From positions 62,001 to 126,000 of the forward strand of contig JAFDXR010000008.1 of NCBI GenBank assembly GCA_018267825.1: a DNA stretch of 64,000 bases. Direction: 5' to 3'. The stretch's first letter is position 1, and the number at the start of each line of letters is the position of its first letter. This stretch comes from Bacteroidota bacterium. GTDB lineage: Bacteria > Bacteroidota > Bacteroidia > B-17B0 > Aurantibacillaceae. Shown one piece after another: positions 35,464-54,277 of this stretch. Both the position numbers and the translations under genes were made by a program. The notes below the pieces were generated by a model, which was not told the origin of the DNA, did not search any database, and saw only the letters and a list, made by a program, of their open reading frames with translations.

Positions 35464-36138
35464 GTGAGTGATTTAACAGAAGATATAAAACCGGATAATC
35501 AAGTAAAATCTAAAAAGCGTGTTACTGATCACGGTGAGGTATTTACTAATGAACGTGAGGTTAATGCAATGCTTGATCTTGTAAAAGAGGAAACAGAGCG
35601 CATTGATTCTCGATTTCTTGAACCTGCCTGTGGAAATGGAAATTTTCTAGCTGAAGTTCTTAATAGAAAACTAAATATTGTAGACCAGCGTTATGGCAAA
35701 AGTCAAACGGAATGGGAGCGCTATGCAGTAATTGCAATTTCAAGTATTTATGGAGTAGACATTTTAGAGGATAACGCTGAAGAGTGCAGAGAACGACTGT
35801 TCAAACTATTTGAAGAACGCTATAAAGTTCTTTTTAAAGATGGAATTAAAGAAGAATGTAACAGGAGTGTAAAATTTCTTTTGAAGCGAAATATTCTTTG
35901 GGGTGACGCTCTAGATTTCACAAATCCTTTATCAAAAAAACCAATTGTATTCTCGGAATGGACAGCGGTTAATGGTTTTTATATGAAAAGAAAAGATTAT
36001 GTGTTTCAATTTTTGGTAGAGGGCAGCTTTCAACTTTCCATATTTGATGAAAATGATACTGCACAATATTTTGACAAAGAGATTCAGGACTTTCCAATGA
36101 TGCACTTTTTAAAACTAGGCGAAGATGATAGAAGCTAA
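35464..36138 (+). CDS. SAM-binding methyltransferase subunit lacking NPPY
   Basis: A 224-residue protein with a GTG start. DHGEVFTNEREVNAMLDLVK and FLEPACGNGNFLAEVLNR (about residue 56) form an intact SAM site as in adenine methylases. However, no NPPY-type catalytic motif follows: the expected place reads LWGDALDFTNPLSKKP. The protein is short for a full methylase. Its end overlaps the next gene by 14 nt. The next protein has NPPY but a weak motif I, so the two may form one functional enzyme. Confidence 0.72.
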   Translation: MSDLTEDIKPDNQVKSKKRVTDHGEVFTNEREVNAMLDLVKEETERIDSRFLEPACGNGNFLAEVLNRKLNIVDQRYGKSQTEWERYAVIAISSIYGVDILEDNAEECRERLFKLFEERYKVLFKDGIKEECNRSVKFLLKRNILWGDALDFTNPLSKKPIVFSEWTAVNGFYMKRKDYVFQFLVEGSFQLSIFDENDTAQYFDKEIQDFPMMHFLKLGEDDRS

Positions 36139-37630: not shown

Positions 37631-37646
37631 ACAAAAAAGTTAAATA

Positions 37647-40169
37647 ATGAGTAAAAAAGATTTCTTCCCATCAAGACCTGCAACCAACCCAACTATATAC
37701 GCTTACGAATTAGTTGATGTAGCAACTCATAAAGGATTGCTTAAAATCGGCTTTACAGATCGTGATGCAAAGACTCGTATAAAGGAGCAATTAGGCACTT
37801 CAAAAATCCAATATAAAATTGTATTCGAGGAAAGTGCAATGAAGAGAGATGGCTCTTCATTTACGGATCACGATGTCCATCGTACATTACGACATAATGG
37901 TTTTGCTAATCCTGATGGAGAATGGTTTAAGTGTAAAGTAAATGATTTACGCAAGGCAATTTGGGAAATCAAAACGGGGGAGCAAACTGAAGAGCAACGT
38001 GTATTAAGTTTTGGTATGCGACCTGAACAGGAAGAGGCTGTTACTAAAACTATAAATTACTATAAGAGTTTTAAAAAGGAAAATAAAAGTAAAACGCCTC
38101 ACTTTTTGTGGAATGCAAAAATGCGCTTTGGAAAAACCTTTGCGAGTTATCAGTTAGCAAAAAAGTTGGGTTGGAAAAAGATACTCATCCTTACATTTAA
38201 ACCGGCTGTTCAAAGTGCATGGGATGAAGATTTAAAAACTCACGTAGATTTCAAAGGTTGGCAATTTATCGCAAGAAATGGTTTAAGCTTTGAAGATGCC
38301 GATCTGAAAAAACCAATTGTTTGTTTTGGTTCTTTTCAAGATTATTTAGGAAAGAATACAAGTACAGGTGGAATCAAAACAAAAAATGAATGGGTGCATT
38401 CAACAAATTGGGATTGTGTAATTTTTGATGAATATCATTATGGTGCTTGGCGTGAAAATGCAAAAGAACTATTTGAAGCTGAAGGAAAGAAAGAGATTGA
38501 ATTCGGGGAAGGAGAAGGTGTTGAATACTTTGATGAGGAGACCATGCCTATTACAACTAATCATTATCTTTATTTATCAGGCACACCATTTAGAGCAATT
38601 GCATCAGGTGAGTTTATTGAAGAACAAATATTTAACTGGACATATTCTGACGAACAAAAAGCAAAAGAAAATTGGAAAGGGAGTAACAATCCCTATTCTT
38701 CTTTACCACGAATGGTAATGTTGACTTATCAATTACCTGATTCTATAAGACAAATTGCAATGCAAGGAGAGTTTGATGGTTTTGATTTAAATGTATTTTT
38801 TGCAGCAGAAGGAGATGGGCGTACAGCACGTTTTAAATTTGAGGATGAAGTTCAGAAATGGCTTGATTTAATAAGAGGTGACTTCAAAGAAACAACTGTT
38901 GATAACCTTAAAATGGGCGCAAAAAAACCACCATTACCTTTCTCGCATGCTCCATTATTAAAAGTATTAAATCATACCTTTTGGTTTCTGCCAACTGTAG
39001 CTTCTTGTCAAGCAATGTCAAACCTATTAAAACAAAGGCAGAATAAATTTTATCATGATTATACGGTTGTTGTGGCAGCTGGAACGCAAGCAGGAATAGG
39101 TGTTGAAGCAATGCCTCCGGTTTTAGATGCAATGACAGATAATCCTTTAGAATCGAAAACGATTACTCTATCTTGCGGTAAACTAACTACTGGCGTGTCA
39201 ATAAAGCCGTGGACAGGTATTTTTATGCTACGAAATTCTTCCAGCCCTGAAACATATTTTCAGGCTGCATTCCGTGTTCAAACGCCTTGGACAATTCGAA
39301 ATCCAGATAGCAAATCACCAAATAAAGTAGAAATTTTAAAAGAGGAATGTTATGTGTTTGATTTTGCTCCTGATAGGGCGTTAAGACAAATTGCAGATTA
39401 CAGTTGTCGACTAAATGTTAATGAAACAAATCCCGAAGCAAAAGTTGCAGAGTTTATTAATTTTTTACCTGTACTTGCTTACGATGGAAGTTCAATGAAA
39501 CAGGTAGATGCTGCTGGAATTTTGGATATGGCGATGAGCGGCACTACAGCTACCTTATTAGCAAGAAGATGGGAAAGTGCATTGCTTGTAAATGTTGATA
39601 ATAGTACACTTGCAAGGCTTATGGCTAATGAAGAGGCTATGAAAGCATTAATGAGCATTGAAGGGTTTAGAAATTTGAATCAGGATATTGAAACTATAAT
39701 TAATAAATCTGAAGCAGTTAAAAAAGCTAAAAAGGAAGCGAATGACAAAGAATTATCTGCTAAAAAGAAAAAAGAATTATCAGATGCGGAGAAAGAATTT
39801 CAAAGCAAGAGAAAACAAATCCAAGAAAAGTTAATAAAGTTTGCAACGAGAATCCCGGTGTTTATGTACCTCACTGATTTTAGAGAACGAAGTCTAAAAG
39901 ATGTTATCACGAAACTTGAACCTAACCTTTTCAAAAAAGTAACAGGACTAACTGTGAAAGATTTTGATTTATTGGTAAGACTTGGCGTTTTTAATTCTGC
40001 ATTAATGAATGACGCTGTATATAAGTTTAAACGTTATGAGGATGCAAGTTTAACTTACGTTGGAGTAAACAAACATGCTGAAGAAGAGAATGTAGGTGGT
40101 TGGGATACAGTAATTACTAAGGATGAGTATAAAGAAAGCTTTGTTAATGAGTCATTTGATGAAAAATAA
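37647..40169 (+). CDS. GIY-YIG (T5orf172-type) nuclease-SF2 helicase restriction protein
   Basis: An 840-residue protein. Residues about 8-110 form a T5orf172/GIY-YIG nuclease: TIYAYELVDVATHKGLLKIG, TDRDAKTRI, DVHRTL, NPDGEWF. A superfamily 2 helicase follows: Walker A WNAKMRFGKTFASYQL (about 155), DExH-like CVIFDEYHYGAW (about 256), SGTPFRAIASG and a late TYFQAAFRVQTPW (motif VI). The C-terminus is helical and Lys-rich. It is the likely translocating DNA-cutting component of this R-M operon. Confidence 0.83.
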   Translation: MSKKDFFPSRPATNPTIYAYELVDVATHKGLLKIGFTDRDAKTRIKEQLGTSKIQYKIVFEESAMKRDGSSFTDHDVHRTLRHNGFANPDGEWFKCKVNDLRKAIWEIKTGEQTEEQRVLSFGMRPEQEEAVTKTINYYKSFKKENKSKTPHFLWNAKMRFGKTFASYQLAKKLGWKKILILTFKPAVQSAWDEDLKTHVDFKGWQFIARNGLSFEDADLKKPIVCFGSFQDYLGKNTSTGGIKTKNEWVHSTNWDCVIFDEYHYGAWRENAKELFEAEGKKEIEFGEGEGVEYFDEETMPITTNHYLYLSGTPFRAIASGEFIEEQIFNWTYSDEQKAKENWKGSNNPYSSLPRMVMLTYQLPDSIRQIAMQGEFDGFDLNVFFAAEGDGRTARFKFEDEVQKWLDLIRGDFKETTVDNLKMGAKKPPLPFSHAPLLKVLNHTFWFLPTVASCQAMSNLLKQRQNKFYHDYTVVVAAGTQAGIGVEAMPPVLDAMTDNPLESKTITLSCGKLTTGVSIKPWTGIFMLRNSSSPETYFQAAFRVQTPWTIRNPDSKSPNKVEILKEECYVFDFAPDRALRQIADYSCRLNVNETNPEAKVAEFINFLPVLAYDGSSMKQVDAAGILDMAMSGTTATLLARRWESALLVNVDNSTLARLMANEEAMKALMSIEGFRNLNQDIETIINKSEAVKKAKKEANDKELSAKKKKELSDAEKEFQSKRKQIQEKLIKFATRIPVFMYLTDFRERSLKDVITKLEPNLFKKVTGLTVKDFDLLVRLGVFNSALMNDAVYKFKRYEDASLTYVGVNKHAEEENVGGWDTVITKDEYKESFVNESFDEK

Positions 40170-40195
40170 TAATTAGGTATTAAACTAAAGATATA

Positions 40196-42250
40196 ATGTC
40201 GACAATAAAGAGAGATGATAAATTTGTTTTTACAACAAATTCAAGAATTATAAAAGATTATTTAACTCAGTACAAGAATACGTTTTATGCTTTTTGTGAA
40301 TTAATTAATAATGCAATTCAAGTAAAAGCGAAAAATATTGAAATTGAAATTGACTATGCTAAATCAGAGGTAACTAAAGCCCCAATAAAAAAAATCACTA
40401 TAAAGGATAATGGACATGGTGTTCCGATTTCAGAATTTGACAAGAGAATTTTGGAAGTAGGTACTGATGTGAAAACAGATGGCTTAGGTGTCGGCAGATT
40501 TGCAGCATTGCAAATCGGTAGTCATATGGAAATTGAAACTGTCGCTTTCGATGAAACATTAAAAAAATTCACTAAAGTTACGTTGCCAATAAATTCTACT
40601 CTATTTAAAAATCAGAGTATGACCGCTCTTAATTTCCCCGGAAAAAAGGAGGTGCTTGACACAAAAACTAATCCGTACTATCAGGTTCAAATAAAAGCGT
40701 TACATCATAATCAAAACCAAAAAACTGACCGAAAAAATATTATTGCCAAGGAACTAATGGCTGATAATATTAGACTTTCGCTTTTTGAGCGTTATCCTTA
40801 TGAAATATTCAATGAAACTGTTCAGTTTTCAGTTAATGGAAAAAAGCTTAAGAAGACAGAGTTCATTCATGATAAGCCAGTAATCAAAAAGGAAAAATTC
40901 ATTGATATGTTAGGTAACGAGCATAAAATGCATTTCTATTTCTATAAAGTTAAATTGAATGATAATAAAGCCAAAGTGTTTTTTCAATTAGAAAATGCAG
41001 GTCTAAAGACTGTAGCAACATCATTTCTGTATTCTTCTGAATGGTTATCTAGAGATATGGGTAGTTGGTTTATATACGTTGAGTCGCCATTCTTTACTGC
41101 TGATGTTTTTCGTGATATTGACATGGATGAATTGGGCGATGATGGCATTGGTAAATTAAAAACATTTGCAAAAGAAGTAATAACACAATTTTTTATTTCA
41201 ATAAACAAAGAATTCGAGACTTTTACAATAAAGCTCAAGGAAGCCTACCCCGGTTATGAGGAAGCTAATTCTTCTTCAGAGACACAAAAATTATTATTTG
41301 AGCAATTCGCATATATCGCTGAGCAAAAATATAAACTCATTGAAAAGGATGTGAAAATTAAAGAAATATTTTATCCCTTAATGGAACGTGCGATTGCTGA
41401 TGGAAACATTGTTGATATACTTGATGGGTTATTAAGTTCAGATAAACCTACAACTGATAAATTCAAATCTCTTTTAGACACAACAGACCTTCCAAATGTT
41501 GTTCATTTCAATAGTGAAGTAGCAAAAAAAATTGAATTTTTAGATTTTCTTTACGAATTAAACTATGGAAAAATTTCGGAATATGTGCTTGAAAGATCTC
41601 AACTTCATAAGGTTGTTGAAAAGGAATTATGGCTTTTTGGGGAAGCGTATAATGGATCACCCAATATTCTTTGGTCAGATAATAAACTACTAGGAATTTT
41701 TGAAGACTTAAGAACTACGTACATGGGTTATGAACCCAAAAAGGAGGATGAGAATTATGTTGATGTAGATGGGGTTGGACTTAATAACATTACGGATTTG
41801 TTTTTTACAAATGAGAAGCCTATGGATAATGGCAGCAGAGAATTTATGATAGTTGAATTGAAAGCCCCTAGATGCAAAATATCATCAAAAGAAATTACCC
41901 AAATTGAAAAATATGCATATGCAGTAGAAAGTTCCGCTTCAATTCCAAAACAGAATACGAAGTATAAATTAATTCTTATTGCAGCAGATATAACTGCACA
42001 AGCAAAATCAAAAATAAAATCCGCTTCAGAAGCCTACCATACTCCATTTTTGCTTGAAAGAAAAAAGGATGTAGACATTGAAATTTATTTAATGACTTGG
42101 TCTGAACTTATAAATATTCAACGAGCGAAGTTGAGTTATTTGTCAAAACATTTGAAAATTAAGGATAAGTCAGTAAAGCAGAAGTTCGAAGAAGAATATC
42201 CAAATTTAATTAATCAGAAAATGAGGACAATGCTAAAAAAAATAGCATAA
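40196..42250 (+). CDS. MORC-like GHKL ATPase with C-terminal PD-(D/E)xK nuclease
   Basis: A 684-residue protein. The N-terminal GHKL ATPase is complete: N-box AFCELINNAIQ (about residue 35), G1 box IKDNGHGVPI (71), G2 box TDGLGVGRFAA (94). The middle resembles the S5 transducer region. The C-terminus has NNITDLFFTNEKP (Asp about 533) and EFMIVELKAPRCK (Glu-x-Lys about 553), the PD-(D/E)xK catalytic pattern. MORC/MutL-type ATPases in prokaryotic R-M systems were described by comparative genomics (Iyer, Abhiman and Aravind). They probably clamp and reshape DNA in the restriction complex. Confidence 0.8.
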   Translation: MSTIKRDDKFVFTTNSRIIKDYLTQYKNTFYAFCELINNAIQVKAKNIEIEIDYAKSEVTKAPIKKITIKDNGHGVPISEFDKRILEVGTDVKTDGLGVGRFAALQIGSHMEIETVAFDETLKKFTKVTLPINSTLFKNQSMTALNFPGKKEVLDTKTNPYYQVQIKALHHNQNQKTDRKNIIAKELMADNIRLSLFERYPYEIFNETVQFSVNGKKLKKTEFIHDKPVIKKEKFIDMLGNEHKMHFYFYKVKLNDNKAKVFFQLENAGLKTVATSFLYSSEWLSRDMGSWFIYVESPFFTADVFRDIDMDELGDDGIGKLKTFAKEVITQFFISINKEFETFTIKLKEAYPGYEEANSSSETQKLLFEQFAYIAEQKYKLIEKDVKIKEIFYPLMERAIADGNIVDILDGLLSSDKPTTDKFKSLLDTTDLPNVVHFNSEVAKKIEFLDFLYELNYGKISEYVLERSQLHKVVEKELWLFGEAYNGSPNILWSDNKLLGIFEDLRTTYMGYEPKKEDENYVDVDGVGLNNITDLFFTNEKPMDNGSREFMIVELKAPRCKISSKEITQIEKYAYAVESSASIPKQNTKYKLILIAADITAQAKSKIKSASEAYHTPFLLERKKDVDIEIYLMTWSELINIQRAKLSYLSKHLKIKDKSVKQKFEEEYPNLINQKMRTMLKKIA

Positions 42251-42320: not shown

Positions 42321-43010
42321 TTAATCAACATTGTCATGCCAAAAAGAATTACCGTTACTCCCAATAAGTATATTTAAAACTGATTTTGGACTTAATCCAA
42401 CTATAATTTTTGTCAGGCAATTTTGCATACCGAATTCATCACCCAAAAGAATAACATTTTGGTTTAGCAACTTCACACCTTCGTAAACGCAAACATCATA
42501 TTTAACCTCATTAACTGAGATTTTTTCTCTGCCATTCGCTAATTGCTCCACTTCACTCAAAACCAATCCTTCTTCTAGTTCGTCGCCTCTTCCTGCAACT
42601 ATAATTTTCCCCACCTGTTGTTTTTTTAAGAGTTCATAAAGTTGTTTTAAAATATTTTCAGATGAAGTACCCATGTCATTTGCACATACTACTACAACAT
42701 AATTTTCCTTGTTGAAAGTAACGTTTACCAAATCATTTATTTGTTTTGTAATTTCTTTGTTTAATATAACCTTGCGACCAAATGTACCGGATGTTACTTC
42801 AATAAAATATTTTTTAAAAGGGAATTTAAGTTCTTTGAAATCGATAAACTTTTCTCTACCTCTTTTGCTTTTGTAATAAAACTCAGAAGCTTCAATAAGT
42901 TCAAAATCATTTACATAATTATTTAATAGATTTAATTGAGATTCCAATTCGCTGCGAAGTTTTTGTACTTTCTCTTGGATTTGATCTAGGTTTACTTCTT
43001 GTTTTTTCAT
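42321..43010 (-). CDS. Unknown protein of the WYL regulon
   Basis: From the Met at 43010 the protein has 229 residues. The first 50 form a coiled coil (DQIQEKVQKLRSELESQLN). The rest is alpha/beta, with YVVVVCANDMGTSSENILKQ and KIIVAGRGDELEEG giving a Rossmann-like look. I recognise no family. It has its own promoter with the shared operator at 43046-43060 and a TTTATTTG -7 exactly 11 nt from it. That ties it to the nuclease/helicase/retron genes. Confidence 0.6.
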   Translation of the reverse strand: MKKQEVNLDQIQEKVQKLRSELESQLNLLNNYVNDFELIEASEFYYKSKRGREKFIDFKELKFPFKKYFIEVTSGTFGRKVILNKEITKQINDLVNVTFNKENYVVVVCANDMGTSSENILKQLYELLKKQQVGKIIVAGRGDELEEGLVLSEVEQLANGREKISVNEVKYDVCVYEGVKLLNQNVILLGDEFGMQNCLTKIIVGLSPKSVLNILIGSNGNSFWHDNVD

Positions 43011-43045
43011 ACGATTATTTTTTATACAAATAAACGAATACACTA

Positions 43046-43060
43046 CGCCAAAATATGGCG
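43046..43060. promoter_or_regulatory. WYL-regulon operator 1
   Basis: CGCCA-AAATA-TGGCG, a perfect 5-bp inverted repeat with 5-nt spacer. It is 11 nt from the -7-like TTTATTTG (43034-43027, minus strand) of the 229-aa gene. Three further copies with the same spacing occur at 44529, 45505 and 46928. Confidence 0.68.
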
Positions 43061-43067
43061 CATAAAA

Positions 43068-43089
43068 AAAGAGGATTTTACTCCTCTTT
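43068..43089 (-). terminator. Terminator after the 71-aa gene
   Basis: AAAGAGGA-TTTTAC-TCCTCTTT, followed by a T run on the minus strand. It separates the AAA operon from the 229-aa gene, which therefore needs its own promoter. Confidence 0.75.
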
Positions 43090-43093
43090 CTTT

Positions 43094-43309
43094 TTAAACT
43101 TTCTTTACGTCAAGATAAACACTTGAATTTCCTCCGTTTTTCTTTAAGTCTAAACCATATTTTCTCATAAAAGCATCTTGTACTTCGTGTCCACCATTTG
43201 TTGTTAGTGGATTAGAGTAATTTGAAGAGACCTCTACTGACATTCCCTTTTCTAAGCGAATTCCATTAGCAATGTGATTTTGTTTTACTGTAATTAAAAA
43301 TAGAGCCAT
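43094..43309 (-). CDS. 71-aa beta-rich partner of the AAA ATPase (DUF6140-like)
   Basis: A 71-residue protein starting MALFLITVKQNHIANGIRLE. I recall near-identical small proteins (DUF6140) that often sit beside BCS1-like AAA genes in Bacteroidota, but I cannot verify this here. It is 22 nt after the AAA stop. A small partner, sensor or substrate of the AAA ATPase is the working idea. Confidence 0.6.
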   Translation of the reverse strand: MALFLITVKQNHIANGIRLEKGMSVEVSSNYSNPLTTNGGHEVQDAFMRKYGLDLKKNGGNSSVYLDVKKV

Positions 43310-43331
43310 AATTTTTGTTTTATTTTTTTGC

Positions 43332-44489
43332 CTACTCTATGCAGTTTTCGGCTTCCCTGATGTTGTTAAACCCGATTGATTTAAACCCGATTAGTTCCCT
43401 TTTAGGTTTATTAAATTCCTTATCTGATTGATTATAAATATCTGTTAGAGTCATGCGCTCGTTGAGATTAGAATCGTAGCCTAATTTTCTCGATAACTCT
43501 CTTGCCTTTTCAATTTCAAGCTCTTTAAATTCATATTTGGCAATCAATCTACCTTTTCGAAGTAATGCGTTATCAACCTTCGAAATGTCTGTGTTAAAAG
43601 AGCAAATAATTTGAATATTTAAACAATCAGATAAAAGCCCATCTGTGATATTTAGTAAAGCAGATACTGGGGAAGCACCTTCTTTATTTCGATCCATTAT
43701 TATATTTTCAGCGTCCTCAATCACAAATATTGAGTTCGGGTTGTCAATTAATATTGACACTAAATTTGGATTTGTAATTTCACTTGCCATACTAGGTGGC
43801 AGAAATATGATGTTCTTTTTTAAACTAGAAATTAAGTATCGTATGTAGGATGTTTTTCCTGTGCCCGGTTTGCCATGCAACAATACTAAGCCTTTATCAT
43901 CCTTTTTTGATAGTCGTTTGATGATTGTTTGATGAATATCCTTGAAATCAGAATTGTAATTATCATCAATCGAAAGTTTCGGTTTTTTTATAGTCAGAGA
44001 TTTAGTTTCAATTCCATGTTTAGAAAACACGAGTAGGGACATTTCAGGTTTATCTCTTTGCTTACGTTCTTTAAATTTCTTTACCTCGGACATTATTTGT
44101 TCTACTCGATCTGTAGCAGTATTCCTAAACAGAAATCGCACAGTATTACTATTTGTGTCAAAATCAACAAGTAAATCATCAAATATTATGTAGAATATAT
44201 CATCGTAGATTGCAGACTTACTTCTATTAAAGTATCTTTTATTATAAAAGCAATCTTTGATTTCCTTTTTATAATTCTCTATAAACCATGTGTGCGCCTT
44301 TTTACAATCAATATTGACCTCGTGTGTGGCATTTGGTATCACATTGAAATAAGCCAAATAAAGTTTGAATTCATTCAAATAGTAGTTTCCCCGATCAGAA
44401 AAAACATCGTTAATATTTAACTTCGAACAATTAATTTTGGCAGCATTGCCTTTGGCTTGAAACCCGCTAATGTCAATTTCCTTTTTCAT
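43332..44489 (-). CDS. BCS1-like AAA ATPase
   Basis: A 385-residue protein. A non-conserved N-terminal half is followed by an AAA domain: Walker A LVLLHGKPGTGKTSYIRYL (about residue 205), Walker B NSIFVIEDAENIIMD (about 253) and sensor/arginine region DISKVDNALLRKGRLIAKY. The DNALLRKGR ending is characteristic of BCS1-type AAA proteins. In bacteria these occur in defence and stress gene sets as remodelling ATPases. There is no membrane helix, unlike mitochondrial BCS1. It is transcribed divergently from the WYL gene, over a shared operator. Confidence 0.8.
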   Translation of the reverse strand: MKKEIDISGFQAKGNAAKINCSKLNINDVFSDRGNYYLNEFKLYLAYFNVIPNATHEVNIDCKKAHTWFIENYKKEIKDCFYNKRYFNRSKSAIYDDIFYIIFDDLLVDFDTNSNTVRFLFRNTATDRVEQIMSEVKKFKERKQRDKPEMSLLVFSKHGIETKSLTIKKPKLSIDDNYNSDFKDIHQTIIKRLSKKDDKGLVLLHGKPGTGKTSYIRYLISSLKKNIIFLPPSMASEITNPNLVSILIDNPNSIFVIEDAENIIMDRNKEGASPVSALLNITDGLLSDCLNIQIICSFNTDISKVDNALLRKGRLIAKYEFKELEIEKARELSRKLGYDSNLNERMTLTDIYNQSDKEFNKPKRELIGFKSIGFNNIREAENCIE

Positions 44490-44509
44490 GTTTAGTATTT
44501 TATTTTGAA

Positions 44510-44517
44510 CAAAACTA
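44510..44517 (-). promoter_or_regulatory. -7 box of the AAA operon
   Basis: TAGTTTTG on the minus strand, 20 nt before the AAA start and 11 nt from operator 2. The operator occupies the expected -33 position, as at the sister promoters. Confidence 0.55.
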
Positions 44518-44528
44518 ATTTTACACTA

Positions 44529-44543
44529 CGCCATTTTGTGGCG
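44529..44543. promoter_or_regulatory. WYL-regulon operator 2 (divergent promoter)
   Basis: CGCCA-TTTTG-TGGCG, a perfect inverted repeat between the divergent AAA and WYL genes. One site could control both directions. Confidence 0.72.
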
Positions 44544-44588
44544 GAATGAATTAAAAGCCTTATATTCGAGAAAACTTAAATCAATTCT

Positions 44589-45497
44589 ATGTCAACTCAA
44601 GCGACAATAAAAAGATATACCTTAATTGTAGAAAAAGTTTCTTCAGTAAGAAACCCATCAATAAAGGAGATAAAGGATTATTTGGAGGATCATGGATTGG
44701 ATATTTCCGACCGTACTTTGCAAAGAGATATTGAACAAATCCGATATGAATTTGGGATTGATATTATTTATGACCGCTTAAATAAGGGCTATTCGATAAA
44801 CAAAGAAGAAAGTATTAATATAGATTCATTTTTAAAATTTTTAGAAATTGTAGGGACTGCAAATTTGCTCTCAGATAGTTTAAAAGAAGGTAAAGAAACG
44901 TTGAACTATTTATCGTTTGAAGCACATGGAAACTTAAAAGGGGTTGATAATTTAAAAGACCTTTTGTTTGCTATAAAAAACAAACGTTTTATTAGTTTCA
45001 TACATCATAATTTTGTTTCCGAAACATCTAAATCATACAGGATACGACCGGGATTACTTAAAGAATATCGAGGAAGGTGGTATGTTATTGGATATCTAAA
45101 CAAATCAAATGATGTAAGAACATTTGGTGTTGACAGGCTTGAAAATTTAAAAATAGAAAGCGAGACTTTTACAAACAGTAAAAAGCAAAATTTAGCTACT
45201 TTGTTTGAAGATGTTGTTGGATTAAATTACACAGAGCATTCGAAAAAAGAAACTGTCACACTCTCGGCAACTCCAATTCAAGCTAGATACCTAAAAGCGT
45301 TACCCTTACATCCATCTCAATACATTTCAAAAGAGACGGACAATGAAGTTCTTATTAGTTTAAATGTAATTCCAAACTATGAATTAACTCAACAATTAAT
45401 GATGCTGGGCGAAAATGTTAAAGTAATTGAACCTAAATGGTTAGCTGATGAAATGATAGAATTATTAAAGACCGCACTTAAGCGATATAAAAAATAA
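44589..45497 (+). CDS. WYL-domain transcriptional regulator
   Basis: A 302-residue protein with the YafY-type layout. An N-terminal winged helix (SDRTLQRDIEQIRYEFGIDI, about residues 38-57) is followed by a WYL domain with YRIRPGLLKEYRGRWYVIGY (about 150-170; WYV in place of WYL). A C-terminal dimerisation region follows. WYL proteins such as BrxR and CapW repress phage-defence genes and respond to nucleic-acid-like ligands. The CGCCA-N5-TGGCG repeat lies in its own promoter region and at least three neighbouring promoters. It is the natural candidate to bind them. Confidence 0.88.
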   Translation: MSTQATIKRYTLIVEKVSSVRNPSIKEIKDYLEDHGLDISDRTLQRDIEQIRYEFGIDIIYDRLNKGYSINKEESINIDSFLKFLEIVGTANLLSDSLKEGKETLNYLSFEAHGNLKGVDNLKDLLFAIKNKRFISFIHHNFVSETSKSYRIRPGLLKEYRGRWYVIGYLNKSNDVRTFGVDRLENLKIESETFTNSKKQNLATLFEDVVGLNYTEHSKKETVTLSATPIQARYLKALPLHPSQYISKETDNEVLISLNVIPNYELTQQLMMLGENVKVIEPKWLADEMIELLKTALKRYKK

Positions 45498-45504
45498 TCC
45501 ATTG

Positions 45505-45519
45505 CGACACACTTTAGCG
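45505..45519. promoter_or_regulatory. WYL-regulon operator 3
   Basis: CGACA-CACTT-TAGCG, one mismatch per half-site from the consensus but with the same spacing. It is 11 nt from the -7-like TTGATTTG at 45531-45538, before the DUF2779 nuclease gene. Confidence 0.58.
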
Positions 45520-45557
45520 TAATAAAATAGTTGATTTGCTAATAAAACTTTTATCAC

Positions 45558-46919
45558 ATGGCTGAAAATAAATTTCACATACTTTCAAAGTCAACATTTG
45601 TTTATGGTTGTCAATGTCCTAAAAGATTGTTTTTGCATAAATACAAACCCGAAGTACGAAACGAAGAGGAAGAAGAACAACTTTCAATCTTTAGTACAGG
45701 AACAAATGTGGGTATTATAGCACAAGGACTATTTCCGGGAGGAATAAACGCTGAGCCGGCAGATGCATTTTCTTATGCACAATCTGTTGCAAAGACTAAG
45801 GAACTTATTGAATCCGGTACAAACATAATTTATGAGGCTGCATTTGTACATAATCAAGTGCTTTGTGCAATAGATATTCTCGTTAAAGAAAATGGCTGTT
45901 GGTATGCATTCGAGGTTAAGAGTACATCGAAAGTTAAAGAGCCTCATATAACTGATGCTGCTCTTCAGTATAATGTAATTACCAATAGTGGAATTGCATT
46001 AAAAGATATTTCTATTGTACATCTAAACACAAAATATATAAAAGACGGAGAGCTTGATGTTACCCAATTGTTTACGAAGTCCTCTGTTCTCAATGAAGTG
46101 TTGGAATTGCAATCATTTATAAATGAAAAAACAAAGAGTTTGCTTCAATTGGTAAAGGATAAAACAGAGCCTATAATTGAAGTTGGCGATCACTGCAATA
46201 TACCATATGCTTGTGATTTTAGTGATTATTGCAGTAATGGTGTTGAAGTGATTGAAGATATCTCGGATAGACCCGAAAACATAGATTCAGATTACATACA
46301 ATCCTTTCTGAATGAATTGCAATATCCACTTTACTTCTTTGATTTTGAAACTGTAATGCCAGTCATTCCTGAATTTGACTTTAGTAGACCGTATCAGCAA
46401 ATTCCCTTTCAATTTTCAGTTCACGTTTTGAAGTCTCCTAAAAGTAAACTAGAGCATTATGAATTTTTAGGAGATGGAATAAATGACCCACGACCTGAAC
46501 TTACAAAGCAATTAGTTAAATGCCTTGGCAAATCAGGAAGTGTAATTGTTTGGAATCAAGGTTTTGAAAAAACAAGGCTTCGTGAATTGGCAATAATGTC
46601 ACCTAAATACGCAAAGCAATTAGAGGCTATAAATGAAAGAATTGTTGATCTAATGAATCCATTTAGAAAAAAGGCATTTTACAAACGTGATTTTAATGAG
46701 TCATATTCTATTAAAGTAGTTTTACCTGTATTAGTTCCGGAATTCAGTTATGATTCACTTACCATACAAAACGGAGGTGATGCAAGTGCCATCTATGCAG
46801 ACCTTAAAAATATTCCGAAGGAAAACATTGAACAAACAAGAAAAGATTTGTTGGAGTATTGCAAGTTAGATACACTTGCTATGGTAAAAATATTGGAAGT
46901 AATTAAATTGAAAAACTAA
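45558..46919 (+). CDS. Cas4-like/DEDD nuclease of the DUF2779 family
   Basis: A 453-residue protein. The N-terminal half is a RecB/Cas4-type nuclease: an N-terminal Cys pair (YGCQCPKRLFLHKY), the catalytic Asp and EVK in DILVKENGCWYAFEVKSTSK, and a C-terminal Cys pair (CNIPYACDFSDYC) that could hold an Fe-S cluster. The C-terminal half (DUF2779) is RNase H-like: YFFDFETVMPVIPEF and LLEYCKLDTLAMVKIL give DEDD-type acids. Such proteins process DNA or RNA ends. It has its own operator/promoter and lies upstream of the helicase and retron. Confidence 0.8.
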   Translation: MAENKFHILSKSTFVYGCQCPKRLFLHKYKPEVRNEEEEEQLSIFSTGTNVGIIAQGLFPGGINAEPADAFSYAQSVAKTKELIESGTNIIYEAAFVHNQVLCAIDILVKENGCWYAFEVKSTSKVKEPHITDAALQYNVITNSGIALKDISIVHLNTKYIKDGELDVTQLFTKSSVLNEVLELQSFINEKTKSLLQLVKDKTEPIIEVGDHCNIPYACDFSDYCSNGVEVIEDISDRPENIDSDYIQSFLNELQYPLYFFDFETVMPVIPEFDFSRPYQQIPFQFSVHVLKSPKSKLEHYEFLGDGINDPRPELTKQLVKCLGKSGSVIVWNQGFEKTRLRELAIMSPKYAKQLEAINERIVDLMNPFRKKAFYKRDFNESYSIKVVLPVLVPEFSYDSLTIQNGGDASAIYADLKNIPKENIEQTRKDLLEYCKLDTLAMVKILEVIKLKN

Positions 46920-46927
46920 ATTGTAAA

Positions 46928-46942
46928 CGTCATACTTTGGCG
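46928..46942. promoter_or_regulatory. WYL-regulon operator 4
   Basis: CGTCA-TACTT-TGGCG, one mismatch from a perfect repeat. It is 11 nt from the -7-like TTCCTTTG at 46954-46961, before the DnaB-like gene. Confidence 0.63.
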
Positions 46943-46979
46943 TTCCTATATTGTTCCTTTGTTTAAATTATTTTAGGCA

Positions 46980-48344
46980 ATGGATACTTTAGAAAAGGAA
47001 TTAATAGGTTCGTTGATTAAGCAACCCGGCTTAATAGATACTTTCCACGAATTTATATTTACAGATGGAGTTTTACAGAGTGAATTTTGCAAGAAGCTAA
47101 TTAAGGCGTTAAAATATCTTCGATCAAATGGTATTGAAATCGATGGTGCAATTTTAAGAAGTCATATTGAAACAACAGAGGGAAGTTCTGAAGAAATTAA
47201 AATCTTCTTTCTTGAACTTAATGATGATAAAATAACTCCTAATTTTAATTACCTGTTATCTCTTCTTTTATTGCGAAAAAAAAGAAAAGAAGCAATTTCT
47301 ATTGGCGAACAATTAATCAATATTGAAACCCAAAATCCGGAAAATTATAATGCCTTGTTGCTGCAATTATTTGATAAGTTTGAAAGAGTTATCTCAGATG
47401 AAATACGAGAAATTAGCCCAGTACATTTCGAACCTCTCTCAAGATATATCTTAGAATTAGGAAGTAAAAAAGCTATAGGGATGAGTACAGGGTTTCCTGA
47501 ACTTGATAATTTATTTGGTGCGTTCAATTGGAGTGAATTTATTGTTGTTGGAGGTCGTCCGGGAATGGGCAAGTCTACTTTAACTTTTAATATTGCTTTA
47601 TACTCAGCACTTACACATAAAATTCCAACCGCTATTCTTAGCCTCGATTATTCTGATAAAAACTGTTATTCAAAACTTTTAAGTATTCTAACTGAAGTAG
47701 AGTTTAAGAAATTCACACAAAACGAATTTTCAGATGAGGAAATTTATAAAATCAAAGATGCTTCAAAATTATTGCTAAGTAATGACTTAATTGTCAATGC
47801 TCCAATAAGTCCAACATTAAAGAATATTATTTACAAAATTCATTACTTAAAGCGAGAGTATGGGATTAAATTAATTGTGATTGATTATCTACAATTAATT
47901 GAAATTGAAAACACCAAGCACAACCGAGATCATGTAATATCCGCAATAAGCAGGAAGCTAAAGGAACTCTCCCGATCTTTATCAATAACAATAATTGCTA
48001 CTTCGCAATTAAGCCGGGCTGTGGAATATAGAGGGGGAGATAAGCGCCCAGTACTTTCCGATTTAAGAGAAAGTGGCTCGTTAGAACAAGACGCAGATTC
48101 TGTATGGTTTGTTTATAGACCCGAATATTACGGTCTTACTGAGGATGAAGTGGGTAATTCGACCGCTGGAATTGGTGAAATAATTATAGCTAAAAATAAA
48201 TCAGGAGCCTGTGGTTCTGCTAGATTGAATTTTAAATCATCAATTCCAACCTTCAAGAATTTAGATATATCCGAAAGCAACAATTTGCATGAAATAAAAT
48301 CCACATGGGATTTATCAAATACACGGAAAGATGAATTTAGTTAA
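46980..48344 (+). CDS. DnaB-like replicative helicase (accessory copy)
   Basis: A 454-residue protein with DnaB layout: a small N-terminal helical domain (about 1-130) and a RecA-type helicase core. Walker A is VVGGRPGMGKSTLTFNIAL (about 192), Walker B is KLIVIDYLQLIEIE, and SQLSRAVEYRGGDKRPVLSD followed by SGSLEQDADSVWFVYRP match the conserved C-terminal motifs. It diverges from housekeeping DnaB and sits in a defence-type operon right before a retron. The retron a1 arm starts at its stop codon. It may be the retron's effector or substrate, or a decoy of the host helicase; this is inference. Confidence 0.85.
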   Translation: MDTLEKELIGSLIKQPGLIDTFHEFIFTDGVLQSEFCKKLIKALKYLRSNGIEIDGAILRSHIETTEGSSEEIKIFFLELNDDKITPNFNYLLSLLLLRKKRKEAISIGEQLINIETQNPENYNALLLQLFDKFERVISDEIREISPVHFEPLSRYILELGSKKAIGMSTGFPELDNLFGAFNWSEFIVVGGRPGMGKSTLTFNIALYSALTHKIPTAILSLDYSDKNCYSKLLSILTEVEFKKFTQNEFSDEEIYKIKDASKLLLSNDLIVNAPISPTLKNIIYKIHYLKREYGIKLIVIDYLQLIEIENTKHNRDHVISAISRKLKELSRSLSITIIATSQLSRAVEYRGGDKRPVLSDLRESGSLEQDADSVWFVYRPEYYGLTEDEVGNSTAGIGEIIIAKNKSGACGSARLNFKSSIPTFKNLDISESNNLHEIKSTWDLSNTRKDEFS

Positions 48345-48518
48345 TACAATGACTCCACTTAGTATAATGAAATTATGAATGCATTAAACGCATTAGGCTG
48401 TGTACCTGCGGTCGGAATTAAAAAGGGGAAGCGCTGCGCCTCCCGGCATCATTCTTAAGCAGAGCTTAAGAATGAATCAATAAAATGATAATTTAAATAC
48501 TAGTGGGGTTATTGTATT
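48343..48518 (+). ncRNA. Predicted retron msr-msd RNA
   Basis: The ends pair: AATACAATGACTCCACTTAG plus TAT at 48343-48365 complements 48497-48518 over about 22 pairs (two G-U, one bulge), the a1/a2 arm. Inside are a hairpin with AATGC/GCATT arms (48378-48394), a GC-rich hairpin at 48426-48444 and a perfect 12-bp hairpin at 48449-48475 with an AGA loop, the likely msd stem. The RNA begins at the DnaB stop codon and ends 5 nt before the reverse transcriptase start. This is the standard order msr-msd-ret. Confidence 0.82.
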
Positions 48519-48523
48519 AATTT

Positions 48524-49525
48524 ATGAAATCAAAATACAAATTTCTAGACAGTCAATTAGCAATAGAAGATATTTCTTCCATTCTTAATATTCGATTTAC
48601 AGAATTAATCAAAAACATTGAAAAGCCCAACTATACTACGTTTAGAATTCCCAAAAAGTCAGGAGGACATAGAGTTGTATTCGCTCCTTGCTCTGATTTA
48701 ATGAAAATCCATAATATCGTAAACAATAAATTACGGTCAACATATCACATGATGCAACCAAAAGTTGTTCATGGATTTACATACAAAACTGCCAAAGAAA
48801 AGTATTTGGATATTGGCATTAAGGCAAATGCTAAAATGCATCTTAATAAAAAGTGTATCCTGAATATTGACATAAAGGATTTCTTTCCAAGCATTAGTAT
48901 TTCAAGAGTAAGAGCGATGTTCGAATGCCCTCCATTCAATTATGATCATAATTTAGCGACTGGTTTAGCTTTATTATTTTGCTATAAAGGACAGCTTCCT
49001 GCCGGAGCGCCTACATCTCCATTAATTTCAAATTTCTATTGTTTGAAATTAGACGCAGATGTGTTGGAACTTAGTAACTCAGAAAACATAACGTATAGTC
49101 GTTACGCTGATGATTTAACCTTTTCATCAAATGCAATAATAGATACAAAGTTTGTAGTAAAAGTATCAGAAATCTTAAAGAATTTTGGATTCGAGATAAA
49201 TAGGAAAAAACTTCGCAAAGCTTCAAATTTTCAGGCACAGTATGTTACCGGGATAAAAGTAAACCAAACACTCAATTTAAACCGCACCTATTATCGTAAT
49301 TTAAGGGCTGTGTTGCATAGTATTGAGCAAATTGGCGTATCTGCCTCAATGCTAAAATACAAAGGCAAGAAACGGTATATTTTAGGGGAAGAGCATAAAT
49401 TTCTATCCTCAGTTAGAGGAAGGATAGAATATTTAGGTTACATCCGAGGAAACAATGATGTATTGTATAAGGAACTTAAGAATAAATTTAACGCTTTGAT
49501 TGACCGAGCGCCAATAAATTACTAA
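48524..49525 (+). CDS. ret: Retron reverse transcriptase
   Basis: A 333-residue enzyme. Catalytic motifs are NIDIKDFFPSI (about residue 114), LPAGAPTSPLISN (158-170) and SRYADDLTFSS (YADD at 194-197). Two retron hallmarks are present: NAxxH as NAKMH at 102-106 and VTG at 241-243 (YVTGIKVN). It copies part of the upstream RNA into msDNA primed from a 2'-OH. The RNA fold at 48343-48518 supports the call strongly. No effector follows; the next gene converges. The upstream DnaB-like and nuclease genes are the effector candidates. Confidence 0.93.
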   Translation: MKSKYKFLDSQLAIEDISSILNIRFTELIKNIEKPNYTTFRIPKKSGGHRVVFAPCSDLMKIHNIVNNKLRSTYHMMQPKVVHGFTYKTAKEKYLDIGIKANAKMHLNKKCILNIDIKDFFPSISISRVRAMFECPPFNYDHNLATGLALLFCYKGQLPAGAPTSPLISNFYCLKLDADVLELSNSENITYSRYADDLTFSSNAIIDTKFVVKVSEILKNFGFEINRKKLRKASNFQAQYVTGIKVNQTLNLNRTYYRNLRAVLHSIEQIGVSASMLKYKGKKRYILGEEHKFLSSVRGRIEYLGYIRGNNDVLYKELKNKFNALIDRAPINY

Positions 49526-51820
49526 CTAATTTACTGTCAAGTCTTTTATAAAATCATTTAACGCATCAATTCGATCCATTGATTCTTCTGCCATCAACAT
49601 ATACATATTTTCATTTTCTATGATTTTATATTTTTTAATAAGCTTAGTATCTATTTTTTCGCTTTCTATCGGAATAATCTTCCAGCCATCTGAAACACAA
49701 TAAATCTTAAATATTTCATTTATTAGCAAATAACTAATTTCTGTAAATCTCCCCCAAAACAATTGAATTTTTTTATTTTCCTTTTGCAACTGCTTTATGC
49801 AGATTAAATAAGGATTTAGATGGTATGAATGTAATGGTAACTTTCCGGAATTCCCAAGACTGTTGATTTCAAAACCATTTTCATCTTTCCATGTAAAAAG
49901 ATTTTGCCTTTCAAATGTTCCATCTGAAAATGAGTCATACTTCACAAAATAATATCTCCAGTCCTTTGTCTCTGAATCATAATTATTAATCATGGCTTTT
50001 AATTTTGCTTCTGCATTTTGCCCCTTAGTTATGATATATGTCTCTAGAAATTTATCAAGTGTTTCAATGATCTTACTATTGCTGTCATTATCGAAAGTTA
50101 AAATTCTATTCCAACAGTTTTTGATTCCAAAATACCAAATGTCACCTAAAACAGAATATCCATGAGTTTCAATTGAATAGTCGCCTATTGACAAAAGTGC
50201 CCTGACGATATTTGAGTCCTTGGTGTTTTCAGACCAAATTTCATTAAACGCTAATATTTTACTTTTTAGGTTTTCTGATCGCAATTTGAAATTAATTGTA
50301 TTTCCTTGTATATATCTATGGTCTTCTAAGAGAAATATGCTTTCTAATAATGTTGGATTTTTACTTATTATTTTTGCTTTAAGTTTTTCATTATTAATGT
50401 TGTCTTTAGTAAAGCCTGAAAGGTTACTTTCGCTAAATAGTTCGAAAACATCTTTTTCTTTATTTAGGGATATAATATCAATTAATCCATCAATGAATTT
50501 TGAATAGTCAGCTACACTTGGCAAACGTAAACTTGATGAATATTCAATTCTTTTATTAGCATTGGGTTGACGAACAGCTAGTAATTGGTTTCGGATGATT
50601 CTAATAAAGTATCGGAGTTTTTTATCGGAGTTTTTGGTTTGTGTTTTTATACAATAATTTAAAATTGAATACAATAAAGTTTTATGCTTTACGTCAAAAC
50701 CCACATCTGTAAGTGATTTCAGAAATAAATCATTTTGATCGTTTTCAAACAGACTAACTTCATTGAATATTTCATTGAAGAACGCTTCTTTATCTTGAAG
50801 ACTTGAAAGAAAATCAAGCGAATCAAATAGAAATTGTACGTTTTGTTTTTCTAGGAACACAAGTTCCAAAAATGCAAAATCTCTAGATTGAGAAGATTGA
50901 TTGTCGGGTAGAGTGTTTTTAAAATAAAGAATATCTGCAATAAAATGAATAAAATTAAGAATCGAATCATCGATTTTAATTTTTGTTTTCAGCCTATATT
51001 CCCAAAACAAATCCATCCATACACTATCAATTTTAAATGCAAAATACTGCTGATATGATACTCTTGCATTATTATATTCAAGTTTTGATTCAAAATAATT
51101 TGTTTGTTTTGAAGAAAGCAAATCTGAGAATTGTGCTTTGAAATTTTCAAATGGACTAAGAGGTTTCCCTCTAGAGTTCATCTTAATGTAAAGCTCGTCT
51201 GTTAATTTAAATTCATCCGATTTGATATCAATATAATCAAACGTAACTTTGTCATTAATTACAAGATTTTTCCACACGTTTTCGCATCCTCCCAGTACTT
51301 CATGAATAGAATCAATCATATTTAGCATCGACAAAATTGTGGGATCATTATTCCATGATGCCATATACCAAGACGAATCCTTTATGTTTTCACTTATTGT
51401 TCCCGAATGAAATAATTTCACATTTGAATATGATATGAGATTTGCACAAAATCGCTTTGATGAAATACGAGTTTCATAAGTGAATTTCTGAAGAGTTTCT
51501 TGAATGCTATTTTTTTCTTCTTGAATGATTGCAATATTTTCTTTTAAAGAAAAATACCAATGCACTAACCACAATGTTGTGAGTCTCTGTTGCCCATCAA
51601 GAGGAATAAACATTTTGCTACCAGCTCCATTGTTTTCGGTAAATCCGTATACAAAATCAAGATTCAAAGGCTTTGTGTCGTTTTCCAACACGTTTTTTAA
51701 TTTATGTAAAAAATTCCGTCTTAATTCAACTGCACTATCTCTTCCTTGTGCATAGTCTCGTTGAATAAGTGGAATTACAATTTCACATTCAGTTAGTAGT
51801 TTATGTAGGGTATATTTCAT
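49526..51820 (-). CDS. DUF262 protein (GmrS-like ParB-fold) of a two-gene pair
   Basis: A 764-residue protein. The N-terminal DUF262 domain has IPLIQRDYAQGRDS and FIPLDGQQRLTTLWLVHWYF, the ParB/Srx-like NTPase motif set. The remaining 500 residues are helical and divergent, without a visible HNH. Its start lies 2 nt after the stop of its partner. It ends convergent with the retron gene without a gap. Such pairs form type IV-like restriction systems acting on modified DNA. Confidence 0.78.
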   Translation of the reverse strand: MKYTLHKLLTECEIVIPLIQRDYAQGRDSAVELRRNFLHKLKNVLENDTKPLNLDFVYGFTENNGAGSKMFIPLDGQQRLTTLWLVHWYFSLKENIAIIQEEKNSIQETLQKFTYETRISSKRFCANLISYSNVKLFHSGTISENIKDSSWYMASWNNDPTILSMLNMIDSIHEVLGGCENVWKNLVINDKVTFDYIDIKSDEFKLTDELYIKMNSRGKPLSPFENFKAQFSDLLSSKQTNYFESKLEYNNARVSYQQYFAFKIDSVWMDLFWEYRLKTKIKIDDSILNFIHFIADILYFKNTLPDNQSSQSRDFAFLELVFLEKQNVQFLFDSLDFLSSLQDKEAFFNEIFNEVSLFENDQNDLFLKSLTDVGFDVKHKTLLYSILNYCIKTQTKNSDKKLRYFIRIIRNQLLAVRQPNANKRIEYSSSLRLPSVADYSKFIDGLIDIISLNKEKDVFELFSESNLSGFTKDNINNEKLKAKIISKNPTLLESIFLLEDHRYIQGNTINFKLRSENLKSKILAFNEIWSENTKDSNIVRALLSIGDYSIETHGYSVLGDIWYFGIKNCWNRILTFDNDSNSKIIETLDKFLETYIITKGQNAEAKLKAMINNYDSETKDWRYYFVKYDSFSDGTFERQNLFTWKDENGFEINSLGNSGKLPLHSYHLNPYLICIKQLQKENKKIQLFWGRFTEISYLLINEIFKIYCVSDGWKIIPIESEKIDTKLIKKYKIIENENMYMLMAEESMDRIDALNDFIKDLTVN

Positions 51821-51822
51821 AA

Positions 51823-53664
51823 CTAGTCGATCATTCTATTTGTAAAGAAATTATATGTTTCCTCTAGACTATTTAAATAATGCTTTCTGTCATTCTCATC
51901 CCAATAAGCATTATTTGGTGGGTATTCAGAATATGCTTTTAAAAAAACATTTCTAGTGCAAATGGGAATATAGAAACCTTCTAATTCACGACTTTTAATT
52001 ATTTCTCTTTTTACATCAAATACTGAATTATTAAGCTTGCTATTTGTAGGCGCATCAATTAGGCATAAATTCTCAATTGAATGTTTATTACTTTCTGTAA
52101 TGCCGGAATATTTATTAATTGCGGAGTATACATCTTCGACAATGCTATCGAAAACTAAATCTTCTATTTTATCAAGTTTTATTGCACTTTCCATTCTCTG
52201 TATTAATTCTTGAAATTCATTTTGATTCAAATTCCTTAACGACTTTAAATGGTCTGAAAGCCAAGTAATGCGATATTCATACCTTACAATATTTTCTGAG
52301 TTCTGCGCATGGATGTGTTCTAAGCTCCACTTTTCATTCTTCTTTGTCTGCTTGTATAAGTTGAATGGGAAGCGAGCTTTTTCTTTTTCACTTTTCAATG
52401 TTGTAAATACATTGTGCAATAATAGAATTTTGTGTATTTCACTTTTATCTGTCGAGTTTTGATCTTCATACTCATATCTTAAAGACTGTACATCCAAATT
52501 GTACAAATTGCCATCTGCATCAGTACGAGTTTTTGTAATTAAAATATTTTTAGAAATTTCACTTTCTAAATACTCTTCAAACTTACTTTTAGTTAAACTT
52601 TTGGATTTTAAAATCAAAGTATCAATGCTACTTCGTTTTTCAGAGATTAAGTAACCTATATAGTGGAAAAGTCGACGGTTATTAAACCAATCTTTAAAAT
52701 GTTCAAAATATTCAATTACAGATTCCCAAATGTGTTCTACTGCGTCAATTCTACTTTTCTTTTCATTTTCCAATAAGTCATCCAAATATTCTGACAAGAT
52801 TAGAAAGGTTGCATGCTTAATTGGTTTTGTATCAAAATATTTTTTCTCCTTTTGAATTTTATCTGCTATTAATTCAAAAATAAATTCTATGTGCGTAGGC
52901 TTTCCGTTCGCTTCGTTACTTAAAAAATACCAAAATTCTTCATTCTGTAGAGTATACTCTATTGAATCCCATTCAGAAGCAATCTCAAAGAGTTTCATTT
53001 TTATGAATTTCAATTCATCAGGGTGGTACTTATCACTTTGAAGTAATAAAGCCTTTGTTAATTCAGCATCGGTTAATGGTATTTTCCCAACATTAAGGCG
53101 AATAAATACTTCAATGGGATTGGTGTCTTTCTCAACTTCATATTTAATAAATCTAACATTTCGATTGCCGGTGTCGTTATTATCCATTAGAATAGGCACT
53201 AACTTTCCTTTAGCTCCTTTATGCTTTTCTTTTTCGAACCATTCCTTTATGCTTGCATAGGCATTACATATATGTGAGAAGTCAATATTAGTATCGTCTT
53301 CAGTAGCAGTAAACTTTTTGTTATTTAAAAACTCTTCGCACTTTGTCCTTGTTTCATAGTTGAGAGAAAATAGTTTTTGAGAATATCCATCCTCAATTCT
53401 TCTCTCCTCCAAATAGACAAGAATTAGATAAAGAGTAGTTAACCTTTGCTGACCATCCAATACATTATAGCTACCATCTTCATTTTTCTGCAAAACGATT
53501 GGTTGAAGGCAATAGAACTCACCGCCTTTAGAGGTCTTCCAAAAACTCCATAAATCATCCAATAGCTCGGTAACTTCTTGCGCCTCCCATCTGTATCCAC
53601 GCTGATAGTGAGGGATGATAAATTTTTCGCCAAATAAATCGATTAATGGTGTTGTTTTACTCAT
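51823..53664 (-). CDS. DUF262-DUF1524 HNH nuclease (GmrSD-type)
   Basis: A 613-residue protein. DUF262 motifs IIPHYQRGYRWEAQEV and VLDGQQRLTTLYLILVYL lie at the N-terminus. The C-terminal DUF1524 HNH-like part has WSLEHIHAQNSENI (about residue 430) and NKHSIENLCLIDAPTNSKL with VFDVKREII. GmrSD enzymes use NTP to cut glucosyl-hydroxymethylcytosine DNA; related SspE senses phosphorothioate. It precedes the second DUF262 gene by 2 nt, so they likely work together. Confidence 0.85.
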   Translation of the reverse strand: MSKTTPLIDLFGEKFIIPHYQRGYRWEAQEVTELLDDLWSFWKTSKGGEFYCLQPIVLQKNEDGSYNVLDGQQRLTTLYLILVYLEERRIEDGYSQKLFSLNYETRTKCEEFLNNKKFTATEDDTNIDFSHICNAYASIKEWFEKEKHKGAKGKLVPILMDNNDTGNRNVRFIKYEVEKDTNPIEVFIRLNVGKIPLTDAELTKALLLQSDKYHPDELKFIKMKLFEIASEWDSIEYTLQNEEFWYFLSNEANGKPTHIEFIFELIADKIQKEKKYFDTKPIKHATFLILSEYLDDLLENEKKSRIDAVEHIWESVIEYFEHFKDWFNNRRLFHYIGYLISEKRSSIDTLILKSKSLTKSKFEEYLESEISKNILITKTRTDADGNLYNLDVQSLRYEYEDQNSTDKSEIHKILLLHNVFTTLKSEKEKARFPFNLYKQTKKNEKWSLEHIHAQNSENIVRYEYRITWLSDHLKSLRNLNQNEFQELIQRMESAIKLDKIEDLVFDSIVEDVYSAINKYSGITESNKHSIENLCLIDAPTNSKLNNSVFDVKREIIKSRELEGFYIPICTRNVFLKAYSEYPPNNAYWDENDRKHYLNSLEETYNFFTNRMID

Positions 53665-54034: not shown

Positions 54035-54277
54035 ATGGAGAAGGTGGAAAACGCCCATATAGACTGGGCTAGAGAGCAGGATGTAACTGCGGAAGAGATA
54101 TTAGCTTCAGATGAATTTAAACATCTAAGCGAAGTGCAAGCGAAAGAAGTTGTTGAGTTTGTTAGAACGATGAGTACTGTTTTTTATTCCCTCTATAAAA
54201 AGCAATACGAGTCCGAAATAGAAATTGAAGACAATGAAACAAATAACAATTACGAACCAATAAAAAATGCAGCATGA
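54035..54277 (+). CDS. Small acidic protein before the serine recombinase
   Basis: An 80-residue acidic, helical protein (AREQDVTAEEILASDEFKHL, EVQAKEVVEFVRTM). Its stop overlaps the recombinase start by 4 nt (ATGA), so they are co-translated. I recall that such small proteins precede serine recombinases in Bacteroidota elements. It may help regulate or direct recombination, but this is inference. Confidence 0.6.
   Translation: MEKVENAHIDWAREQDVTAEEILASDEFKHLSEVQAKEVVEFVRTMSTVFYSLYKKQYESEIEIEDNETNNNYEPIKNAA

Follow-up and report, generated by a model that had tools for sequence, protein, structure and literature searches.

What could coordinate a set of unrelated, putative defense genes that lie on both strands of one genomic island? 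To our knowledge, little is understood about how such islands are coordinated, and most of the regulators described to date repress a single system. The question is raised by a stretch of 64,000 nucleotides (nt) of a Bacteroidota bacterium (contig JAFDXR010000008.1 of assembly GCA_018267825.1, positions 62,001 to 126,000; hereafter, the window), in which a gene for a WYL-family protein lies among genes for an AAA+ ATPase with a 71-residue DUF6140 protein, a 229-residue protein, a DUF2779 putative nuclease, and a DnaB-family helicase followed by a retron. A first-pass annotation of this DNA had noticed a 15-bp palindrome, CGCCA-N5-TGGCG, in the control regions of these units and had read them as a single regulon. 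Our analysis supports that reading and suggests that one probable sensor of single-stranded DNA (ssDNA) switches the whole set on together, the WYL protein being, in our judgment, quite likely a transcription activator of the DriD type.

The four sites are where they had been described, and all of them are intergenic. They start at 43046, 44529, 45505, and 46928, with 0, 0, 2, and 1 mismatches to CGCCA-N5-TGGCG, and fall within the regions 43010-43094, 44489-44589, 45497-45558, and 46919-46980, respectively. Read toward the target gene, the spacer between the 15-mer and a box of the pattern TNNNTTTG is exactly 11 nt in four out of four cases, as had been claimed for the 229-residue protein, AAA, DUF2779, and DnaB promoters. 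On the minus strand, operator CGCCATATTTTGGCG (43046-43060) precedes the -7 box TTTATTTG (43027-43034) of the gene for the 229-residue protein, and CGCCACAAAATGGCG (44529-44543), located in the region from which the AAA and WYL genes diverge, precedes TAGTTTTG (44510-44517) of the AAA-DUF6140 unit. On the plus strand, CGACACACTTTAGCG (45505-45519) is followed by TTGATTTG (45531-45538) before the DUF2779 gene, and CGTCATACTTTGGCG (46928-46942) by TTCCTTTG (46954-46961) before the DnaB-retron unit. As the density of T[AT]NNTTTG boxes in the window is 0.0016 per base per strand, four of four at a single exact offset is not chance. The second position of the -7 box is T instead of A in three of the four promoters, as would suit weak promoters in need of assistance.

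Pattern searches of the 4.82-Mb genome showed what part of this arrangement is specific. The composite CGNCAN5TNGCG-N11-TNNNTTTG has four matches, all of them inside the island, and none with its reversed control in the whole genome; allowing gaps of 5 to 20 adds two off-island matches, neither with a gap of 11. The composite was derived from these same four sites, so that the genome count alone is no independent test. The same genome-wide search found no composite site before the genes flanking the WYL regulon. The bare perfect 15-mer, which the first-pass annotation had taken as its reference, has six genomic copies, four of them off-island, and we rejected it as a specific marker. Neither does it represent the family: the consensus is CGACAYRCTTTGGCG, although the sites behind it were picked by pattern and are informative only at the free positions (a T-rich right spacer, a pyrimidine at position 6, and the flanking bases). 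The two "mismatched" sites of the window are thus close to the family consensus.

The spacing is conserved well beyond this genome. We searched 295 Bacteroidia genomes for CGNCA-N5-TGNCG followed after 11 nt by TAnnTTTG and obtained 52 matches in 23 genomes, against only a handful for the reversed control. When gaps of 5 to 20 were scanned in the same genomes, gap 11 accounted for 50 among the 150 matches listed, against a mean of 6.7 and a maximum of 15 for the other 15 gaps, this maximum coming partly from conserved rRNA-like sequence; since two genomes of one genus contribute many of the gap-11 sites, these are not all independent. A second sample comprised 34 loci selected solely for encoding a close WYL protein (41 to 56% identity), where gap 11 had 23 matches and any other gap two at most. 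The proximal half-site alone, TTG[GTA]CG, gave 22 matches at gap 11 in these loci and no more than three at others, and with a relaxed -7 box the operator is seen in about two-thirds of them, often right after the WYL stop codon. Conservation in other species despite diverging flanks, a further expectation of the first-pass annotation, was borne out: the flanks and the sequence of the 11-nt spacer diverge between species, while the sites persist before homologs of AAA (11 at other loci), DUF2779 (three; L042, L158, and L161), a DnaB-like helicase (one; L138), and the 229-residue protein (one; L103). The off-island copies of the bare palindrome could be taken to mean that the four sites are chance matches, or else copies of one duplicated promoter segment. 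We give this a negligible probability and consider it refuted, as the 11-nt spacers and the -7 boxes differ among the four sites, the same operator geometry recurs in other genera, and gap 11 stands out both in the 295 genomes and for the half-site in the close WYL loci.

The candidate reader of the operator is the WYL protein itself (44589-45497, plus strand; 302 residues), with Pfam matches to WYL and WCX and a recognition helix, SDRTLQRDIEQIR, that contains R42 and R46. Its role as regulator had been proposed from its position, and co-occurrence and recognition-helix covariation now also point to it. The motif, with no use of WYL, led to 20 loci, a set that excludes the query genome, G014 as its near relative, and a genus with a dispersed regulon (G081 and G190). 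Of these, 14 had a member of this WYL family within the fetched stretch, versus 0 of 20 control loci with a gap other than 11 (p=3e-6). In 46 distant WYL loci not chosen by the operator, it was present in three of the six with Arg42/Arg46 versus 0 of the 40 with other residues (p=0.0013), and over the loci examined the operator occurs only with WYL proteins having this pair. The equivalent residues R38/R42 of SiwR are required for promoter binding and activation (PMC10693628), and R44/R48 of PafB have been proposed as readers of G and C bases (PMC6789036). We can predict from this pattern that the WYL protein binds the operator.

Two broader assignments of the site were rejected. It is not common to all WYL proteins, being absent from the distant WYL loci whose recognition helices differ; a general palindrome search of distant WYL loci found only three scattered matches to other palindromes at gap 11. 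Nor do AAA homologs retain it without the regulator: the nine AAA loci lacking a WYL neighbor had no matching promoter site, with one unrelated bare site far off in L273. As two blocks at a fixed spacing are also typical of sigma factor recognition, the block might be the promoter of an alternative sigma factor, with an upstream element that is palindromic by accident and a WYL neighbor that has no role. We regard this as very improbable, because the sites co-occur with the WYL clade (14/20 versus 0/20) and only with Arg42/Arg46 helices, the box downstream of the operator is the ordinary -7 box of the phylum, and the upstream block equals the known DriD site.

The first-pass annotation gave no account of how the geometry might work; it matches that of WYL activators. 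DriD of Caulobacter crescentus is an ssDNA-responsive homodimeric WYL activator with the consensus ATACGAC(X)7GTCGTAT (PMC12340889). The oligonucleotide of its assay, ATACGACAGTAACTGTCGTAT (PMC12340889), contains CGACA-N5-TGTCG, and the three DriD promoters seen by cryo-electron microscopy read TG[GT]CG-N11-(-10 hexamer), a placement that we made via the reported G-14. The family operator is similarly CGACA-N5-TG[GT]CG with flanking CTA/TAG, the window sites having third-position variants. Both systems also have a constant 11 nt from site to box over several promoters under one regulator, a poor -35 region, and an operator in a divergent region that serves the neighboring operon. However, the DriD targets are DNA-damage genes scattered over the chromosome (didA, bapE, recJ, and dnaG), whereas those described here (AAA, DUF2779, DnaB-retron, and others) are clustered in one Bacteroidia island and have a TAnnTTTG promoter.

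Mycobacterial PafBC recognizes the motif tTGTCRgtg-8nt-TannnT (PMC5656591), which equals TGTCR-N11-TAnnnT. It has in common with the Bacteroidia family, T[GA][GTA]CG-N11-TAnnTTTG with TGTCG in several members, the half-site core, the 11-nt spacing, the missing -35 element, and the Arg pair of the recognition helix (PMC11804915, PMC5656591). By contrast, PafBC is a heterodimer or fused protein that works by sigma adaptation and reads one half-site; the island encodes only one WYL protein, of a single unit, and its operator has two half-sites. The remaining WYL-like genes of this genome lie on contigs C31 and C33. Another homodimeric WYL activator, SiwR of Mycobacterium smegmatis (PMC10693628), also has an Arg pair in its helix-turn-helix and acts from the -26 region at a palindrome upstream of a divergent operon, but it controls one DinB-like operon through a 19-bp palindrome of other sequence. 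The Bacteroidia operator promoters thus have their half-site and spacing in common with activators known from two other phyla.

The predicted structure of the WYL protein agrees with this comparison. In an AlphaFold2 model (predicted local distance difference test score, 84.9), helices 78-105 lie between the winged helix-turn-helix and WYL domains, and the resulting winged helix-turn-helix-WYL-WCX fold with its helical linker is like that of DriD. DriD is the top fold match over residues 3-302 (Foldseek 1.6e-13, Z ~17), ahead of PafBC, BrxR, and CapW (Z ~10-12 for the last two), while PafBC is the best PDB profile match. Of the four ssDNA-binding residues named for PafB, two have identical counterparts in the WYL protein: Y165 corresponds to Y196 and R177 to R208.

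A TTG 18 to 21 nt before the -7 box is found in 81 of 374 ordinary promoters versus 0 of 34 operator promoters, where it is missing at -33 because the operator occupies that place, although this zero largely follows from the operator sequence itself. The same position raises the main alternative, namely that the WYL protein is a repressor of the BrxR/CapW type that covers the -33 region and is released by a ligand, with the same genes still forming one regulon. An operator placed there would block polymerase, the half-sites of BrxR are likewise 5 bp apart, and the TTTG of the proximal arm, at gap 14, could function as a -33 element and thereby also explain the constant spacing. Moreover, BrxR and CapW, the WYL regulators known from phage defense loci (BREX and CBASS), both repress (PMC9122601, PMC9122589, PMC9122588). 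Nevertheless, we find this unlikely. The position of the repressors varies, with CapW sites overlapping the -10 box and BrxR sites lying at -51 to -27 or downstream of the promoter, whereas here the position is exact to 1 nt across genera, and at every window site the operator core stops 11 nt short of the -7 box, with no overlap of the -10 region. The TTG peak of ordinary promoters is at gaps 18 to 21; gap 14 has fewer, 19. BrxR and CapW also differ in their recognition residues and are the weaker fold and profile matches, and the operator sequence and spacing agree with DriD and PafBC instead. The shared half-site and spacing, the fold match to DriD, the missing TTG, and the T in the -7 boxes together favor activation over repression.

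Several points weigh against a DriD-type activator. The WYL protein is only 17 to 20% identical to DriD, and the PafB ssDNA-binding residues R181 and R204 (PMC11804915) are not conserved in it. About one-third of the close WYL loci have no recognizable site, some because the contig ends. In any case, the phylum has weak -33 elements.

We nevertheless consider a DriD-type activator the probable reading, and the mechanism would be as follows. A dimer of the WYL protein would bind CGNCA-N5-TGNCG such that the proximal half-site ends exactly 11 nt before the -7 box, cover the place of the would-be -33 element, and keep RNA polymerase at four promoters that are weak otherwise. The gene for the 229-residue protein, AAA-DUF6140, DUF2779, and DnaB-(msr-msd)-reverse transcriptase would thereby be switched on together. 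By analogy with DriD and PafBC, the signal would probably be ssDNA that arises in phage replication or through DNA damage, and the presumable outcome would be defense. Such a mechanism would link Bacteroidia defense islands to the ssDNA-sensing activators of DNA-damage responses in two other phyla.

The sequence rule (15-bp box, 11 nt, and -7 box) offers a way to predict members of the WYL regulon from DNA alone. Clustering of the genes behind 68 sites (61 of them at gap 11), window members included, gave AAA homologs at 12 loci, an AAA-M41 (FtsH-like) protease at 10, the WYL gene itself at five, DUF2779 at four, and DnaB and the 229-residue family at two each. The protease, the second most common gene behind the operator (L135, 10965-13010, and nine other loci), is not found in the window and is a candidate defense protein, an example of how the rule could lead to new candidates. 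In another family, one island (L264) has four gap-11 sites together with WYL, AAA, and a DUF2779-like gene. In one genus (G081 and G190; L111-L114 and L125-L133), the operator with 11-nt spacing is spread over at least 11 dispersed promoters, among them the promoters of a patatin and an M15 peptidase as well as those of secreted proteins that carry type IX sorting domains, so membership of the regulon is not confined to defense. A gap-11 operator also lies 106 nt upstream of recA in L123, from a genome (G660) that has the WYL regulator; 0 of 30 other recA upstream regions had such a site, and a general SOS-type promoter was rejected on these grounds. More broadly, we lean slightly toward the view that a DriD-type WYL clade, which is spread across Bacteroidia and also has members in Ignavibacteria and in one Riflebacteria genome, operates an alarm that responds to ssDNA independently of SOS and activates clustered, interchangeable units of defense islands. 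The clade would share its polymerase-docking geometry (TGKCG, 11 nt, and -10 element) with DriD and PafBC, and the operator would be a portable tag for new genes to join the regulon.

As for the targets in the window, the AAA+ ATPase (43332-44489, minus strand; 385 residues; Pfam AAA 4e-12) is followed in line, after an intergenic gap of 22 nt, by the DUF6140 gene (43094-43309, minus strand; Pfam DUF6140 8.8e-31), and both are probably on one transcript. Rfam places a DUF805b RNA motif (43329-43361, minus strand; score 37.1 versus a gathering threshold of 35.6) in the stretch from the AAA stop to the DUF6140 start; no DUF805 gene was found adjoining it. The 229-residue protein (42321-43010, minus strand) has no Pfam match. 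The DUF2779/RNase H-like putative nuclease (45558-46919, plus strand; 453 residues) matches Pfam DUF2779 (4.8e-44) and RNase_H_2, with a weak RecB-like match below the cutoff. For AAA, DUF6140, DUF2779, and the 229-residue protein, a role in defense is suggested by the company they keep.

The DnaB-family helicase (46980-48344, plus strand; 454 residues; Pfam DnaB_C 2.3e-73) is separated from a retron reverse transcriptase (48524-49525, plus strand; 333 residues; RVT_1, and PADLOC retron reverse transcriptase models down to 7e-90) by a putative msr-msd RNA (48345-48515, plus strand) with a long end-to-end stem (-62.2 kcal/mol, z -7.2). The reverse transcriptase gene has no operator of its own and probably belongs to the DnaB unit. 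The fold of the RNA is typical of a retron msr-msd, and Rfam gave no msr match for it despite the strong fold and reverse transcriptase matches; the pairing of a retron reverse transcriptase with a DnaB-like helicase looks unusual.

The neighborhood looks like a mobile defense island. Assignment to named defense systems was rejected, as PADLOC matched only the WYL protein, the retron reverse transcriptase, and one GmrSD-like protein, plus weak matches to the AAA and DnaB proteins. One flank (35464-42250), which lies outside the WYL regulon, probably codes for a restriction-modification set: besides an Eco57I-like methylase, it contains a ResIII helicase that carries a T5orf172 domain, together with a HATPase protein that weakly resembles BbrUII restriction enzymes. 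The other flank contains two adjoining GmrSD-type proteins (49526-53664, minus strand); at L042, from the same family, WYL, DUF2779 (58%), AAA, and two GmrSD-like genes are also found together. Beyond them lies a serine recombinase gene (within 54274-55909) whose end overlaps a tRNA-Arg gene (55835-55909, minus strand), a junction that is likely the edge of the island.

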